From assembly GCF_001921205.1 (NCBI RefSeq), contig NZ_MSIE01000092.1:1-36136 (forward strand): DNA of 36,136 nt. The letters run 5' to 3'. A program made the translations under genes and the position numbers. This stretch comes from Actinophytocola xanthii. Lineage in GTDB: Bacteria; Actinomycetota; Actinomycetes; Mycobacteriales; Pseudonocardiaceae. Of the stretch, positions 5,669 through 21,813 are shown one piece after another. A model generated the notes under the pieces. It saw only the letters and a list, made by a program, of their open reading frames with translations. It was not told where the DNA came from and ran no database searches. Position 1 is the first letter of the stretch. Every line of letters begins with the position of its first letter.

Positions 5669-7921
5669 ATGCCACAGATCACGCTCACCGCCCGGCTGAC
5701 GCCGTCCGCGCTGGACACGCGCCGCGGGGTGGTTCGGCTGCACCCCGAGGTGCTCGACGCGCTCGGCCTCGAGCAGTGGGACGGGGTGCGCCTGACCGGG
5801 GCACGGGCGAGCGCCGCGCTGGCCGCGGCCGCCGACGGCCCGCCCGGTGTGGTGTTGCTGGACGACCTGACGATGTCCAACATCGGGGTGACCGAGGGCG
5901 CCGAGGTCGTGGTCGCACCGGCGGACGTGGCGCCGGCGCGCTCGGTGACCGTGGCCGGCTCGCGGCTGGCGTCGACCTCGCTGGCCCCGGAGACCGTCCG
6001 CCAAGCGCTGATCGGGAAGATCCTGACCGTCGGCGACGCGGTCTCGCTGCTGCCGCAGGACCTGGCCCCGCCGCCGGGCTCGGACCTGTCCGCCGTACGC
6101 GGCAAGCTGTCCCGCGCGATCGGCACCACGTGGACCAACGAGCTGCTGACCGTGACCGCGTCCGACCCGCCGGGTGCGGTCGCCGTCCATCCGTCCACAG
6201 TGGTGGGCTGGCGGGACGGTGCGCGCACCGGGGAGGCCGCCGTGGTCGCCCAGCCGGCCGACGGCTCGGCCACCACCCTGGTGGCCACCTCGGCCGCCTC
6301 CACCACCGCGGTCACCACGGACGCGGTCGCCGCGCTGGCCGAGCCGGAGGTCGAGCCACCCCCACCGGTGACCGACCTGGTCGGTGCACGGGAGGTGGCC
6401 GACCGGCTCGCCGAGTGGTTCGAGCTGGCGTTCCGCCGGCCCGAGCTGCTGACCAGGCTCGGCGCGGCCGCCCAGCTGGGCGCGCTGCTGACCGGGCCCG
6501 AAGGTGTCGGCAAGTCCACAGTCGTGCGCTCGGTGGCCGCGGCGGCCGGCGCATCGGTCGTCGAGCTCGCGGCACCCACGCTGGCGGCCCTCGAACCGAA
6601 CACCGCGGCAGCGAGGCTGACCGCCGCCGTGGCCCGGGCGGGCGCCGGCACACCGTCGGTCCTGCTGCTCAACGACCTGGACGCGCTGCTGCCCGCCAGC
6701 AGCCCGCCGCCGGTGGCGACCGTCGTCCTGGACACGTTGCGTGCCGCGATCCGCATCCCCAAGCTGGCCATCGTCGCCACCACCGCCCACCCCGAGGCGG
6801 TCGACCCCCGGGTCCGTGGCGTCGACCTGCTCGACCGCTCGCTGAGCCTGCCCCTGCCGGACGCGACGACCCGTACCGAGCTGCTGCGCGTGCTGCTCCG
6901 CGACGTCCCGATCGAGTCCAACGTGGACTTCGGCGAGGTGGCCGAGCGGACGCCCGGCTTCGTGGCGGCCGACCTGGTGGCGCTGCGCCGGGAGGCGGCG
7001 GTACGAGCGGCCCTGCGTGACAAGGATGCCGAGTCCCCCACCGTCACCTCGGCCGACCTGCTGGGCGCGCTGGAGTCGGTCCGGCCCACCTCGATGTCCA
7101 CATCGGACACCCTGCAGACCGGCGGGTTGACCCTCGACGGCGTCGGCGACATGGTCGAGGTCAAGCAGGCACTGACCGAGGCCGTGCTGTGGCCGCTGCG
7201 CTACCCGGACTCCTTCGCCCGGCTCGGCGTCGCGCCCCCGCGCGGCATGCTCCTGTTCGGCCCACCCGGCTGCGGCAAGACGTTCCTGGTCCGCGCCCTG
7301 GCCGGAACCGGCAAGCTGAACGTGCTGTCGGTCAAGGGCGCCGAGCTGATGGACAAGTGGGTCGGCGAGTCCGAGCGCGCGGTCCGCGAGCTGTTCCGCC
7401 GCGCGGCCGAAGCCGCCCCCGCCCTGGTGTTCCTGGACGAGGTGGACGCGCTGGCCCCGCGCCGTGGCCAGTCGTCGGACTCGGGGGTGGCGGACCGCGT
7501 GGTCGCGGCCCTGCTGACCGAGCTGGACGGCGTCGAGCCGATGCGTGACGTGGTCGTCCTCGGCGCCACCAACCGACCCGAGCTGATCGACCCGGCGCTG
7601 CTGCGCCCCGGACGGCTGGAGCGGCTGGTCTACGTGCCGCCGCCGGATGCCGAGGCCAGGGCCGAGATCCTGCGGGCCGTCGCCAGGAACACCCCGTTGG
7701 CGCAGGACGTGGAGATCCCCGCGCTGGCGGCCGACCTCGACGGCTATTCGGCTGCCGACTGTGCCGCGCTGATCCGCGAGGCGGCGCTGACCGCCATGCG
7801 GGAGTCGCTGGAGGCCACCGAGGTGACCGCGGCGCACCTGGCCACTGCCCGGGGCGCGGTCCGCCCCTCGCTGGACCCGGACCAGCTCGCCTCGCTGGAG
7901 AGCTACGCTCAGTCCCGCTGA
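5669..7921 (+). CDS. CDC48/p97-like double AAA ATPase
   Basis: A 750-aa protein with an N-terminal double-psi-barrel-like region (about 1-200), then two AAA modules. D1 has Walker A GPEGVGKST (about 276-284), but its Walker B is NDLDA instead of DELDA, and the RPGR arginine-finger region is replaced by LDRSLSLPL. D2 is intact: GPPGCGKT (about 531), FLDEVDA (D590, E591), GATNRPELIDPALLRPGR. D1 probably binds but hydrolyses ATP poorly, and D2 powers the hexamer. Members of this family unfold or remodel proteins. It is in a tight cluster with pssA (11-bp gap), an arrangement also remembered from mycobacteria. Substrates are unknown. The ATG at 5669 lacks a clear Shine-Dalgarno. Confidence 0.9.
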   Translation: MPQITLTARLTPSALDTRRGVVRLHPEVLDALGLEQWDGVRLTGARASAALAAAADGPPGVVLLDDLTMSNIGVTEGAEVVVAPADVAPARSVTVAGSRLASTSLAPETVRQALIGKILTVGDAVSLLPQDLAPPPGSDLSAVRGKLSRAIGTTWTNELLTVTASDPPGAVAVHPSTVVGWRDGARTGEAAVVAQPADGSATTLVATSAASTTAVTTDAVAALAEPEVEPPPPVTDLVGAREVADRLAEWFELAFRRPELLTRLGAAAQLGALLTGPEGVGKSTVVRSVAAAAGASVVELAAPTLAALEPNTAAARLTAAVARAGAGTPSVLLLNDLDALLPASSPPPVATVVLDTLRAAIRIPKLAIVATTAHPEAVDPRVRGVDLLDRSLSLPLPDATTRTELLRVLLRDVPIESNVDFGEVAERTPGFVAADLVALRREAAVRAALRDKDAESPTVTSADLLGALESVRPTSMSTSDTLQTGGLTLDGVGDMVEVKQALTEAVLWPLRYPDSFARLGVAPPRGMLLFGPPGCGKTFLVRALAGTGKLNVLSVKGAELMDKWVGESERAVRELFRRAAEAAPALVFLDEVDALAPRRGQSSDSGVADRVVAALLTELDGVEPMRDVVVLGATNRPELIDPALLRPGRLERLVYVPPPDAEARAEILRAVARNTPLAQDVEIPALAADLDGYSAADCAALIREAALTAMRESLEATEVTAAHLATARGAVRPSLDPDQLASLESYAQSR

Positions 7922-7933
7922 CGAGGAGCGCGA

Positions 7934-8587
7934 CTACTTGTCGTCCTTCTCCTCGGGTTCCCGCACGCCGCCTGGGCCCTGGTAGTCGCTGGTGACGATG
8001 ACGATCAGGCCGGGCTCGGCGCCGCCGAGGCCGGTGAACCGGGGTTCCACCCGCATGCCGAACTCGTCGCCGAGCACCTCCGCGGCGCTCTCCTCGGCGG
8101 TGCCGGGCCGGAAGTACACGGTGGTGGTGGGGATGACGCCGCTCGGGTAGTTGCCGACCTCGGTCACCGGCCAGCCGGACTCACGCAGCTCGTCGGCCGC
8201 GCGGTTGGCCAGCCCGCCCACGGTGCTGTTGTTGTAGACCCGGACCTGTTGGCTCTTGCCCGGCTCACCGTTGCCGTCGCCCGGTGGCGGCGCGGGCGCC
8301 GAGGAGCCGGCGCTCTCCGGCGGACGGTCCGTGCTGGGGCGCTCCGAGGACGGCGGCCGCGAGGACGTGCCCGGGGAGGAGGTGGCCGAGCCCGGCGGCG
8401 AGGACGTGCCGGACCCGTTCGGCGCGGAGGTCGAGGCGGGCGGCTGCTCGTTGTCGTCGGCCTGGTCGTCGCCGTTCCCGCCGACCAGCGAGAACAGCCC
8501 GATGACCAGCGCGATGGCGGCCAGTCCGAGCAGCGCCAGGCCGGCGACCCGCAGCGGCCGTGTCGGGGACGGGTCGGGAGCGGTCAT
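7934..8587 (-). CDS. LytR C-terminal domain membrane protein
   Basis: A 217-aa protein: short cytoplasmic N-terminus, one transmembrane helix (about 13-36, VAGLALLGLAAIALVIGLFSLV), a Ser/Pro/Thr-rich disordered linker (about 38-105), then a LytR_C domain (about 110-205) starting QQVRVYNNSTVGGLANRAADEL and including VYFRPG. LytR_C domains occur outside the membrane, alone or fused to LCP cell-wall ligases; their binding partner is not firmly known. It overlaps the DUF3263 gene by 4 bp (ATGA), so the two are translationally coupled. It converges on the AAA ATPase with a 12-bp gap. The organisation resembles the Rv0430-Rv0431 pair (remembered synteny). Confidence 0.85.
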   Translation of the reverse strand: MTAPDPSPTRPLRVAGLALLGLAAIALVIGLFSLVGGNGDDQADDNEQPPASTSAPNGSGTSSPPGSATSSPGTSSRPPSSERPSTDRPPESAGSSAPAPPPGDGNGEPGKSQQVRVYNNSTVGGLANRAADELRESGWPVTEVGNYPSGVIPTTTVYFRPGTAEESAAEVLGDEFGMRVEPRFTGLGGAEPGLIVIVTSDYQGPGGVREPEEKDDK

Positions 8588-16125: not shown

Positions 16126-16146
16126 CGAAGAACGAGAACTCAACAT

Positions 16147-18780
<2,634 letters not shown>

Positions 18781-18804
18781 GCTCGCGTGGACGTCCACGC
18801 GAGC
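18781..18804. promoter_or_regulatory. 24-bp perfect palindrome between thiD and the channel gene
   Basis: GCTCGCGTGGAC followed by its exact reverse complement GTCCACGCGAGC, starting on the base after the thiD stop and ending 17 bp before the channel GTG. It can fold as a 10-bp hairpin with a 4-nt ACGT loop. Without a T-tract it is a poor intrinsic terminator by E. coli rules, but T-less hairpins can work in actinobacteria. Its perfect two-fold symmetry also suits a dimeric repressor. Confidence 0.6.
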
Positions 18805-18821
18805 ACTCGGGAGGGCCGGCG

Positions 18822-19640
18822 GTGAGGACCCGGGATCGGGCGCGCGCGCTCGTGGAGAACGGCCGGTTCCAGCAGTTCATCATCTGGGTGATCGTGGTCA
18901 ACGCCGTGACGCTCGGGCTGGAGACCTCGACCAGGGTGATGGCCGCCGCCGGTGGGCTGCTGCACGTGGCCGACCGCGTGATGCTGGCGATCTTCGTGCT
19001 CGAGCTGGCCTGTCGCCTGTACGCCTACCGGTGGCGGTTCTTCCGCGACCCGTGGAACGTCTTCGACTTCGTCATCGTCGGGATCTCGCTGCTGCCCACG
19101 ACCGGTCCGTTCTCGGTGCTGCGTGCCCTGCGGGTGCTCCGGGTGCTGCGCCTGATCTCGGCCGTGCCGGCCATGCGGCGGGTGGTGTCGGGTCTGCTGG
19201 CGGCGGTGCCGGGGATGGCGTCGATCGGAGCGCTGCTCGGCCTGATCATCTACGTGGCCGCGGTGATGGCGACGAAGCTGTTCGCCCCGATCGCACCGGA
19301 GTTCTTCGGCAGCCTCGACACCACGCTGTTCACCCTGTTCCAGACGATGACCGGCGAGGGCTGGCCCGACGTCGCCAGGCAGGTCATGGCCGAGGCGCCG
19401 CTGGCCTGGATCTTCTTCGTCGTCTACATCCTCGTGTCGAGCTTCGCGGTGCTCAACCTGTTCATCGCGGTGATCGTGAGCGGCATGGAGAAGCAGGTCA
19501 CCGACGACCTGGTTCGGGCCGAGGACCAGCACGCCGCGGACCAGGCGGCCTCGGACAAGCTGATCCTCGAGGAGCTGCGGGCACTGCGCGCCGAGGTCGC
19601 CGAGCTGCGCGCGGAGCGAACCGCCGCCGACCGGGGATGA
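18822..19640 (+). CDS. voltage-gated cation channel, NaChBac/BacNav-type, with Cav-like filter
   Basis: A 272-aa single-domain ion channel that should assemble as a membrane tetramer. S1 lies near 18-38, S2 near 50-68, S3 near 80-93, S4 near 98-115 with Arg101, 104, 107 and 110 every third residue, S5 near 133-153, the pore helix and filter near 168-183, and S6 near 193-222. A cytoplasmic coiled coil with Leu/Glu/Arg heptads covers about 245-268. The filter is TMTGEGWPD (Glu179), not the TLESWS of NavAb/NaChBac; TGEGWPD recalls eukaryotic Cav filters, so calcium permeation is possible. GGGAGG lies 7 nt before the GTG. It converges on thiG with a 7-bp gap. Confidence 0.92.
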   Translation: MRTRDRARALVENGRFQQFIIWVIVVNAVTLGLETSTRVMAAAGGLLHVADRVMLAIFVLELACRLYAYRWRFFRDPWNVFDFVIVGISLLPTTGPFSVLRALRVLRVLRLISAVPAMRRVVSGLLAAVPGMASIGALLGLIIYVAAVMATKLFAPIAPEFFGSLDTTLFTLFQTMTGEGWPDVARQVMAEAPLAWIFFVVYILVSSFAVLNLFIAVIVSGMEKQVTDDLVRAEDQHAADQAASDKLILEELRALRAEVAELRAERTAADRG

Positions 19641-19647
19641 CCCCGCC

Positions 19648-20605
<958 letters not shown>

Positions 20606-20610
20606 CACGA

Positions 20611-21705
20611 TCACCTCTTCGTCCTGGCGTGGCGGGCGGGATCGGCGGCGGCGGCCGAAGCGGGCGGATCCTCCCCGGCCACCAGGGCGTTCACCACCTC
20701 GGCGGTGATCGGCGCGAGCAGCAGGCCGTTGCGGTGGTGCCCGGCGGCGACGAGCACGCCGGGTTCGAGCCGGCCGAGCAGCGGCAGGTTGTCCAGGCTC
20801 CCGGCGCGCAGCCCGGCCGCACACTCGGTGAGCCCGTACTCGGCGAGGCCGGGCAGCACCCGCTCGGCGTCGACCAGCAGGTCGCGCACGCCGCCCACGA
20901 TCACCTCGTCGTCGAACCCCGCCTCGTACTGGGTGGCGCCGAGCACCAGCTCGCCGCCCGGTCGCGGCACGAGGTACACGTGCCGGGACTCGACCAGGGC
21001 ACGCACCGTGTGCCGCAGGGGCACCACGCCGGGCCGGACCCGCAGCCGCAGGATCTCCCCCTTCACCGGCCGGACGAGTCCTTCCAGCGCGGAGTGCAGC
21101 GCGCTGGACCAGGCGCCGGCGGCGATCACCGCGGTGTCGCAGCCGAGGGTGGCTCCGTCGGTGAGCACGACCGCGCCGGGCCGGACCGCCGCCGCCGAGC
21201 GCGGGTCGAACGCGACCCCCGCCTCCCGAGCCAGGTCCACCAGGCGCCGTAACAGCTCCCGCGTGTCCACGGCGAGGTCGCCGGGCACGATGAGTCCACT
21301 TCGGATGCTGGGACCGAGTGCCGGGTCGGCGGCCCGCAGCTCGGGTCCGGTGAGCCGGCGCACCTCGCGGCCGCGGGAGGCCAGATGGTCGGCGAGCATG
21401 TCGAGAACCGCGGCGTCCGCGCTGTCCAGGGCGGCCGCGATGGTGCCCTCGGTCTGGAGCGGGACGCCGACGGCCTCGGCGAACGCCGGCCAGCTCTCGA
21501 GCGAGGCGCTGCCCAGGTCGAGCAGGTCCTCCTCGCCGGGCCAGGACTCGGTGACCGGCGCGAGCATGCCACCCGCCACCCAGGACGCTCCGACAGCCGG
21601 GGTGGGGTCGAGGAGGGTGACCTCGTGGGACGCGGCCAGCCGCCAGGCCACCGACAAGCCGATGACCCCGCCACCGACGACGACGATCCTCTGCCTAGAG
21701 CTCAA
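20611..21705 (-). CDS. thiO: glycine oxidase ThiO
   Basis: A 364-aa FAD-dependent DAO-family enzyme that oxidises glycine to the imine used by ThiG in the thiazole branch. The N-terminal dinucleotide fold is RIVVVGGGVIGLSVAWRLA. VGASWVAGGMLAPVTE, the substrate-region RPVKGEILRLR and the C-terminal GHHRNGLLLAPITAEVV fit ThiO. The TTG at 21705 is the only practical start: an in-frame TGA lies two codons upstream and FAD-binding sequence begins at about residue 6. A 5-codon ORF (21712-21695) overlaps the start in another frame. Expression should fall when TPP is abundant because of the upstream riboswitch. Confidence 0.93.
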   Translation of the reverse strand: MSSRQRIVVVGGGVIGLSVAWRLAASHEVTLLDPTPAVGASWVAGGMLAPVTESWPGEEDLLDLGSASLESWPAFAEAVGVPLQTEGTIAAALDSADAAVLDMLADHLASRGREVRRLTGPELRAADPALGPSIRSGLIVPGDLAVDTRELLRRLVDLAREAGVAFDPRSAAAVRPGAVVLTDGATLGCDTAVIAAGAWSSALHSALEGLVRPVKGEILRLRVRPGVVPLRHTVRALVESRHVYLVPRPGGELVLGATQYEAGFDDEVIVGGVRDLLVDAERVLPGLAEYGLTECAAGLRAGSLDNLPLLGRLEPGVLVAAGHHRNGLLLAPITAEVVNALVAGEDPPASAAAADPARHARTKR

Positions 21706-21712
21706 CGCACAT
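21695..21712 (-). other. short upstream ORF overlapping the thiO start
   Basis: Minus-strand ATG at 21712 encodes MCVEL and stops with TAG at 21697-21695, inside the thiO coding sequence. GGGAG at the end of the riboswitch lies 4 nt before this ATG and 11 nt before the thiO TTG, so ribosomes may first load on the short frame. Whether it is translated is unknown. Confidence 0.35.
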
Positions 21713-21715
21713 CAC

Positions 21716-21803
21716 GCTCCCTGCGCCGGCATGATCCGGATCAGGTTCGACGGTCGGGATCGGCGGATCCCCTCTCAGCCCGGTACCTCCGGACTCCCGT
21801 GCG
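21716..21803 (-). promoter_or_regulatory. TPP riboswitch controlling thiO-thiS-thiG
   Basis: Read leftward: ACGGGAGTCCGG, then GGGCTGAGAGGGGATC, then GAACCTGATCCGGATCATGCC (in two pieces around 21750-21730) and GGCGCAGGGAG ending near 21716. These are the conserved TPP-aptamer blocks in order. The final GGGAG doubles as the Shine-Dalgarno, as at thiC, so control is probably at translation. Confidence 0.95.
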
Positions 21804-21813
21804 GACCACCTCC

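Follow-up and report, generated by a model that had tools for sequence, protein, structure and literature searches.

The window, by which we mean the whole stretch of 36,136 nucleotides analysed here (from the soil actinobacterium Actinophytocola xanthii, contig NZ_MSIE01000092.1), carries a gene for a voltage-gated cation channel amid thiamine genes. The gene order is thiC, thiD and the channel gene, then the convergent thiG, thiS and thiO, with thiE beyond. The features are listed below, each with its strand and the evidence on which it rests.

16140..16268, plus: TPP riboswitch ahead of thiC-thiD(-channel) (Rfam RF00059, 58.7 bits)
16259..17914, plus: thiC (ORF; synteny)
17911..18780, plus: thiD, ending 41 nt before the channel start (ORF; synteny)
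18781..18804, plus: 10-bp hairpin with a 4-base loop and no T run, between the thiD stop and the channel gene (fold z-score)
18810..18815, plus: Shine-Dalgarno-like GGAGGG (read in the sequence; putative function)
18822..19640, plus: gene for a single-domain voltage-gated cation channel, GTG start (ORF, Ion_trans, dN/dS)
19113..19163, plus: S4 helix of the voltage sensor (residues 98-114), containing R101, R104, R107 and R110 (NavAb alignment; helix in model)
19350..19370, plus: selectivity filter 177-TGEGWPD-183, lacking one residue relative to the NavAb/NavMs-type TLESWSMG (alignment)
19491..19634, plus: helix at the C terminus (residues 224-271), which may form a tetramerising coiled coil (helix in model)
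19648..20403, minus: thiG, convergent with the channel gene (ORF; matched in 30 of the 30 family genomes searched)
21701..21810, minus: second TPP riboswitch, ahead of thiO-thiS-thiG (Rfam RF00059, 63.1 bits)

An earlier sequence-only reading of this DNA had placed the channel gene between thiD and thiG and convergent with the latter, and the coordinates of thiG bear this out. The names thiC, thiD and thiG are putative and follow resemblance to known thi proteins and the naming in that reading.

The channel gene and its product

The channel ORF runs in an intact frame from the GTG at 18822 to a TGA at 19638-19640 and encodes 272 aa, with a spacing of six bases between GGAGGG and the GTG. Pfam Ion_trans matches residues 16-225 (E 5.5e-45) as the single such domain, covering S1-S6. 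When the protein was compared with PDB sequences by phmmer, a NavAb mutant (1.4e-65) and NavMs (3.5e-65) came first, followed by the four-domain Cav3.2, whose value of 3.5e-65 is a sum over five stretches. The AlphaFold2 model, made for the monomer only, has a mean pLDDT of 84.8 and a pTM of 0.59, and the PDB folds that fit it best are again those of NavMs and NavAb (best E 2.9e-16). Taken together, these results uphold the description of the product as a complete single-domain S1-S6 channel. The host genome (97.7% complete, 204 contigs) has three Ion_trans matches, among which the window channel is the sole one of the Nav/Cav type. L002 and L003 were considered as further Nav/Cav channels and rejected, being of potassium-channel types (TTVGYGD and TTGYGD, respectively).

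The nearest named relatives are the channels of five other Actinophytocola (L024-L028), which are 80-86% identical to that of the window. Against these congeners dN is 0.088-0.126 and dS 0.43-0.60, and the resulting dN/dS of about 0.18-0.27 indicates that the protein is under purifying selection. Because selection keeps the protein, a chance frame is ruled out. Decay does occur in the genus, as A. algeriensis illustrates, in which L027 6920-7426 is a truncated paralogue without S1-S3; nevertheless, given the intact frame, the dN/dS values and the retention of the S4 and pore motifs, it is most improbable that the window gene is itself decaying or non-conducting.

The four S4 arginines that the sequence-only reading had pointed out match those of NavAb one by one: R101, R104, R107 and R110 align with R99, R102, R105 and R108, and none of the four varies among the 36 sequences of alignment A1, of which the window protein is one. 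E61 and D82 likewise align with NavAb E59 and D80, and the S6 asparagine N212 with its NavAb counterpart. NavAb residue numbers are given as chain positions minus 4, an offset fixed by the residue that we take to be Glu177. The alignment with NavAb extends to residue 263, and the AlphaFold2 model has one continuous helix over residues 195-271. This modelled helix makes a C-terminal tetramerising coiled coil plausible, as had been proposed, although a simple heptad score over residues 226-272 was reached in 172 of 2000 shuffles.

The selectivity filter and its variation

Alignment with NavAb confirmed both the filter TGEGWPD and the retention of Glu179. The filter does not match the canonical sodium-selective BacNav form TLESW(S/A); a gap lies opposite NavAb Met181, and Asp183 of the window stands opposite Gly182. 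The extra residue of TLESWSMG is present in NavAb, NavMs, the other TLESWSMG rows, L096 (TLEGWSAE) and L126 (TFDDWSGG), and absent from an actinobacterial clade in which TGxxW filters predominate, from three Lysobacterales rows and from L118 and L119, which we infer to be AnclNavs from their TFEDWTD filter.

Variation was counted in an alignment of 116 rows, consisting of the window, 85 copies from 80 loci, 28 further relatives, plasmid ones among them, NavAb and NavMs. Gly2 before W5 (TGxxW) occurs in 90 of the 116 rows, all natural, although the 80 loci were picked by similarity to the window protein, which favours close relatives, so that these counts are not natural frequencies; the engineered NavAb L176G contributes one additional TG row. 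The earlier description of such a filter as rare among BacNav proteins is thus contradicted, TGxxW being the majority form in this similarity-based sample. Exact TGEGWPD was found in 16 rows and TGEAWPD in 32. The six other rows of the window's own 7-row clade (L024-L028 and L057, an Antribacter) all have TGEAWPD. A. gossypii and A. oryzae have TGEAWPD channels. A wider clade of 46 rows, counted in a 104-row tree from which 12 near-identical rows had been dropped, has A in 25, G in 15 and S in 6 rows at position 4, with at least 11 changes, while G2, E3, W5 and P6 are constant and only D or E occurs at position 7. More distant members have D or N at position 4. Eight channels, mostly of Nonomuraea/Acrocarpospora (L088, L089, L094 and L098-L102), share a TGDDWGN filter resembling repeat IV of alpha1G (Cav3.1), TGDNWNG.

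In its wording the window filter is Cav-like, as the sequence-only reading had recognized. The repeat filters reported for alpha1C (Cav1.2) are TMEGWTD, TGEDWNS, TFEGWPE and TGEAWQD (PMC7916697), and TGEGWPD combines the TGE of repeats II and IV with the EGWP of repeat III. Cav1.2 has four domains per gene whereas the window channel has one, and the likeness may be convergence.

Phylogenetic position

Trees were built without the filter columns and without the sequences of CavMr and NavPp, and both carried long-branch warnings. The actinobacterial and Lysobacterales rows unite in the quick tree (84 rows, support 99) as well as in the careful tree (24 rows, 100/98), and this set groups with NavAb and NavMs (96; 92/88), apart from L118 and L119. 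By these trees the clade would be nearer the canonical BacNavs, NavAb and NavMs, than the ancestor-like channels, with the alternative that joins it to L118 and L119 not rejected by the AU test (p 0.087). A contig labelled Rhodococcus rhodnii (L030, 6001-6792) has a channel together with thi genes; these group with Kibdelosporangium in a 5-row clade at 100, and the contig is possibly mislabelled or foreign sequence.

Predicted ion selectivity

The sequence-only reading took the pore to be calcium-permeable or mixed. By analogy this is reasonable, because CavMr of Meiothermus ruber, with the filter TLEGWVD, is calcium-selective with Gly4 as the key residue (PMC7041947). CavMr, which belongs to the AnclNav group, is like the window channel single-domain, and both have T-x-E-G-W-x-D with Gly4 and Asp7. 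In contrast, Leu2 and Val6 of CavMr are replaced by Gly2 and Pro6, and the extended, disulfide-bearing L6 loop described for CavMr (PMC10120453) has no equivalent in the window channel, whose single Cys is residue 64. With the AnclNav group as a whole the window channel shares the absence of the extra residue of TLESWSMG and, at position 7, a polar or acidic residue. NavAb and NavMs resemble it in sequence and fold (41-48% identity, among the 50 structure matches listed), in the S4 arginines and in the S6 asparagine, and differ in having TLESWSMG instead of the shorter TGEGWP-D. NavPp of Plesiocystis pacifica has Asp7 in common with the window, but Asp4 in place of Gly4.

We propose, with a probability of roughly one half, that the gene product belongs to the BacNav superfamily and forms a homotetrameric cation channel opened by depolarisation, with a NavAb/NavMs-like scaffold and a Cav-like, calcium-passing pore. 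S1-S4 would sense voltage through the four arginines, as the alignment strongly suggests. In the tetramer, the ring of Glu179 would be flanked by Gly178 and widened above by Gly180, and Asp183 would stand where NavAb has Met181-Gly182. Hydrated divalent cations might then enter the pore, with calcium passing and probably dominating, at about even odds; the cellular use could conceivably be voltage-triggered calcium entry. In favour of calcium, the window has Gly180 at position 4 and Asp183 and is without the extra TLESWSMG residue, and a 2023 review gives a rule linking calcium selectivity in one-domain channels to a Gly directly behind the filter acid (PMC10120453). In CavMr, studied in a G240A background, PCa/PNa was 218 and fell to 11.9 in G4S and 40.1 in V6T (PMC7041947). 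Several points argue against calcium. At least 11 changes at position 4 within the 46-row clade are not expected if this residue alone, under constraint, decided selectivity; the closest one-domain relatives of known structure are NavAb and NavMs, both of them sodium channels; Asp7, equated with NavAb Met181 in PMC7041947, appears dispensable in CavMr, whose D7M mutant retained a PCa/PNa of 144 (PMC7041947); and the trees, which lack CavMr itself, do not support a placement with its group. In the open-licence literature we found no recording of a filter with G2 and P6, or of such a filter on a NavAb-like scaffold. Complete filter swaps between CavMr and NavAb gave no detectable current (PMC7041947).

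A sodium-permeable channel blocked by external calcium, in which divalent cations bind to the widened filter and pass poorly, is a less probable alternative. NavPp, with the filter TLEDWTD, behaves in this manner, passing Na+ and being inhibited by Ca2+ (PMC7041947). The scaffold is nearest to NavAb and NavMs, and two NavAb mutants, which also count against the calcium reading, point the same way: L176G, which shares Gly2 with the window, gained calcium block, its current being about halved at 40 mM (PMC10349818), and S178G (TLEGW) is far from calcium-selective, with a PCa/PNa below 0.01 (PMC12919392). Against such block and in favour of calcium, a D4G change turned NavPp itself calcium-selective, raising PCa/PNa from 0.308 to 41.4 (PMC7041947), and the window has Asp in place of Met181, the loss of which raised calcium permeation in NavAb (PMC12919392).

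That loss also bears on a further alternative, somewhat less probable again, that the pore is poorly selective and passes Na+, K+ and Ca2+ alike. All NavAb M181A mutants were nonselective and preferred calcium moderately, about tenfold, and the corresponding residue of CavMr is Asp (PMC12919392); G4S and V6T of CavMr lost monovalent discrimination (PMC7041947); and position 4 is labile within the clade. The remaining filter positions, however, are constant or D/E across the 46 rows, suggesting that permeation is under selection. Our preferred reading remains the calcium-passing channel at the even odds given above.

CavMr is described in a 2026 paper as the only identified prokaryotic Cav (PMC12919392), and in the open-licence literature, judged by titles, we found no study of actinobacterial channels of the present family. 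Within our sample, a Cav-like filter is the norm for a large and apparently uncharacterised actinobacterial family. The clade offers natural channels near NavAb and NavMs, both of which have structures, in which Cav-like filters are already present and the key position 4 varies among A, G and S, and it is suited to asking which of Gly4, Asp7 and filter length determines selectivity for calcium.

Relation to the thiamine genes

Among the 80 loci, thiD precedes the channel gene on its strand in 40 and convergent thiG lies downstream in 40, with both present in 36 and at least one in 44; the other 36, some with short flanks, have neither as a neighbour and include Saccharopolyspora and Streptosporangiales. 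The channel gene is thus beside thiD in related genomes too, a recurrence that amends the sequence-only reading. A functional link, for which that reading saw no obvious sign, stays doubtful. We also searched for thiG in 30 family genomes, picked as lacking the channel or having it elsewhere, and all 30 have it. The places of 20 of the 30 thiG matches were examined, and L195, which has a channel at the site, was set aside. At 14 of the 19 channel-free loci thiD faces thiG within the stretch examined, and at 5 there is no thiD there. The thi arrangement is therefore kept in the channel's absence too, and since the thiD-thiG order persists where the channel is missing, we read the channel as a passenger at the thi site and do not think that it serves thiamine synthesis. 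Its place behind thiCD would be inherited, with possible read-through from the TPP-riboswitch operon.

A functional tie to thiamine synthesis, in which the channel and thiCD would be expressed jointly under TPP-riboswitch control, is not without evidence: the riboswitch precedes thiC in the window, thiD is upstream on the same strand in half of the loci, with its match ending within 120 nt of the channel in 29 of the 80, and no U-tailed terminator separates the two genes. We nonetheless consider it improbable, given the 14 channel-free loci, the 36 loci with neither neighbour, some of them short-flanked, and the stable hairpin that follows thiD in the window. The segment 18760-18830 folds with a z-score of -4.5, none of 200 shuffles being as stable, and the hairpin at 18781-18804 is possibly an attenuator or terminator. 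Around the channel gene, neither a sigma-70 promoter nor a U-tailed terminator was found. A hairpin conserved throughout the genus was considered and rejected: no stem of this kind occurs between thiD and the channel gene in L024-L028, while a 12-pair stem is present at that place in L048, a MAG labelled Actinophytocola whose channel is 67% identical. An overlap of thiD and channel in L041, L042 and L050 was likewise dismissed, the thiD stops at 5990, 5990 and 5975, respectively, preceding the channel match at 6001.

Two variants of the arrangement were observed. In L035, L036, L044 and other Amycolatopsis a second thiD, apart from the thiC-thiD pair, is directly ahead of the channel gene. In L024 (6845-7222) and L025 (6872-7249) a gene for a 125-aa putative membrane protein, not seen in the window, stands between the channel gene and thiG.

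Tandem copies

Some relatives have more than one channel gene. At the same thi site, L026, an Actinophytocola MAG, has three in a row (6001-8434), with the filters TGEAWPD, TGEAWPD and TQGWPP, and L027 (6001-7426) has a TGEAWPD copy followed by the shortened TQGWPE copy without S1-S3; the TQGWPP and TQGWPE filters have no acidic residue. Two TGESWPD copies each were found in Thermocrispum L045 and L046, and L128, L129 and L130 (G125, G071 and G103, of one genus) have a tandem pair of TMEGWQG/S and TLEGWQD, which are CavMr-like filters. A bolder and rather unlikely reading would make the clade natively calcium-selective on a NavAb-like scaffold and independent of CavMr, with filters resembling several eukaryotic Cav repeats; tandem copies, such as TMEGWQG/S with TLEGWQD or TGEAWPD with the acid-less TQGWPP, might then build heteromers, a bacterial counterpart of the four-domain Cavs. 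With the TQGWPP copy as the query, a channel match (E <= 1e-10) was present in 109 of the 249 genomes of the family sample.
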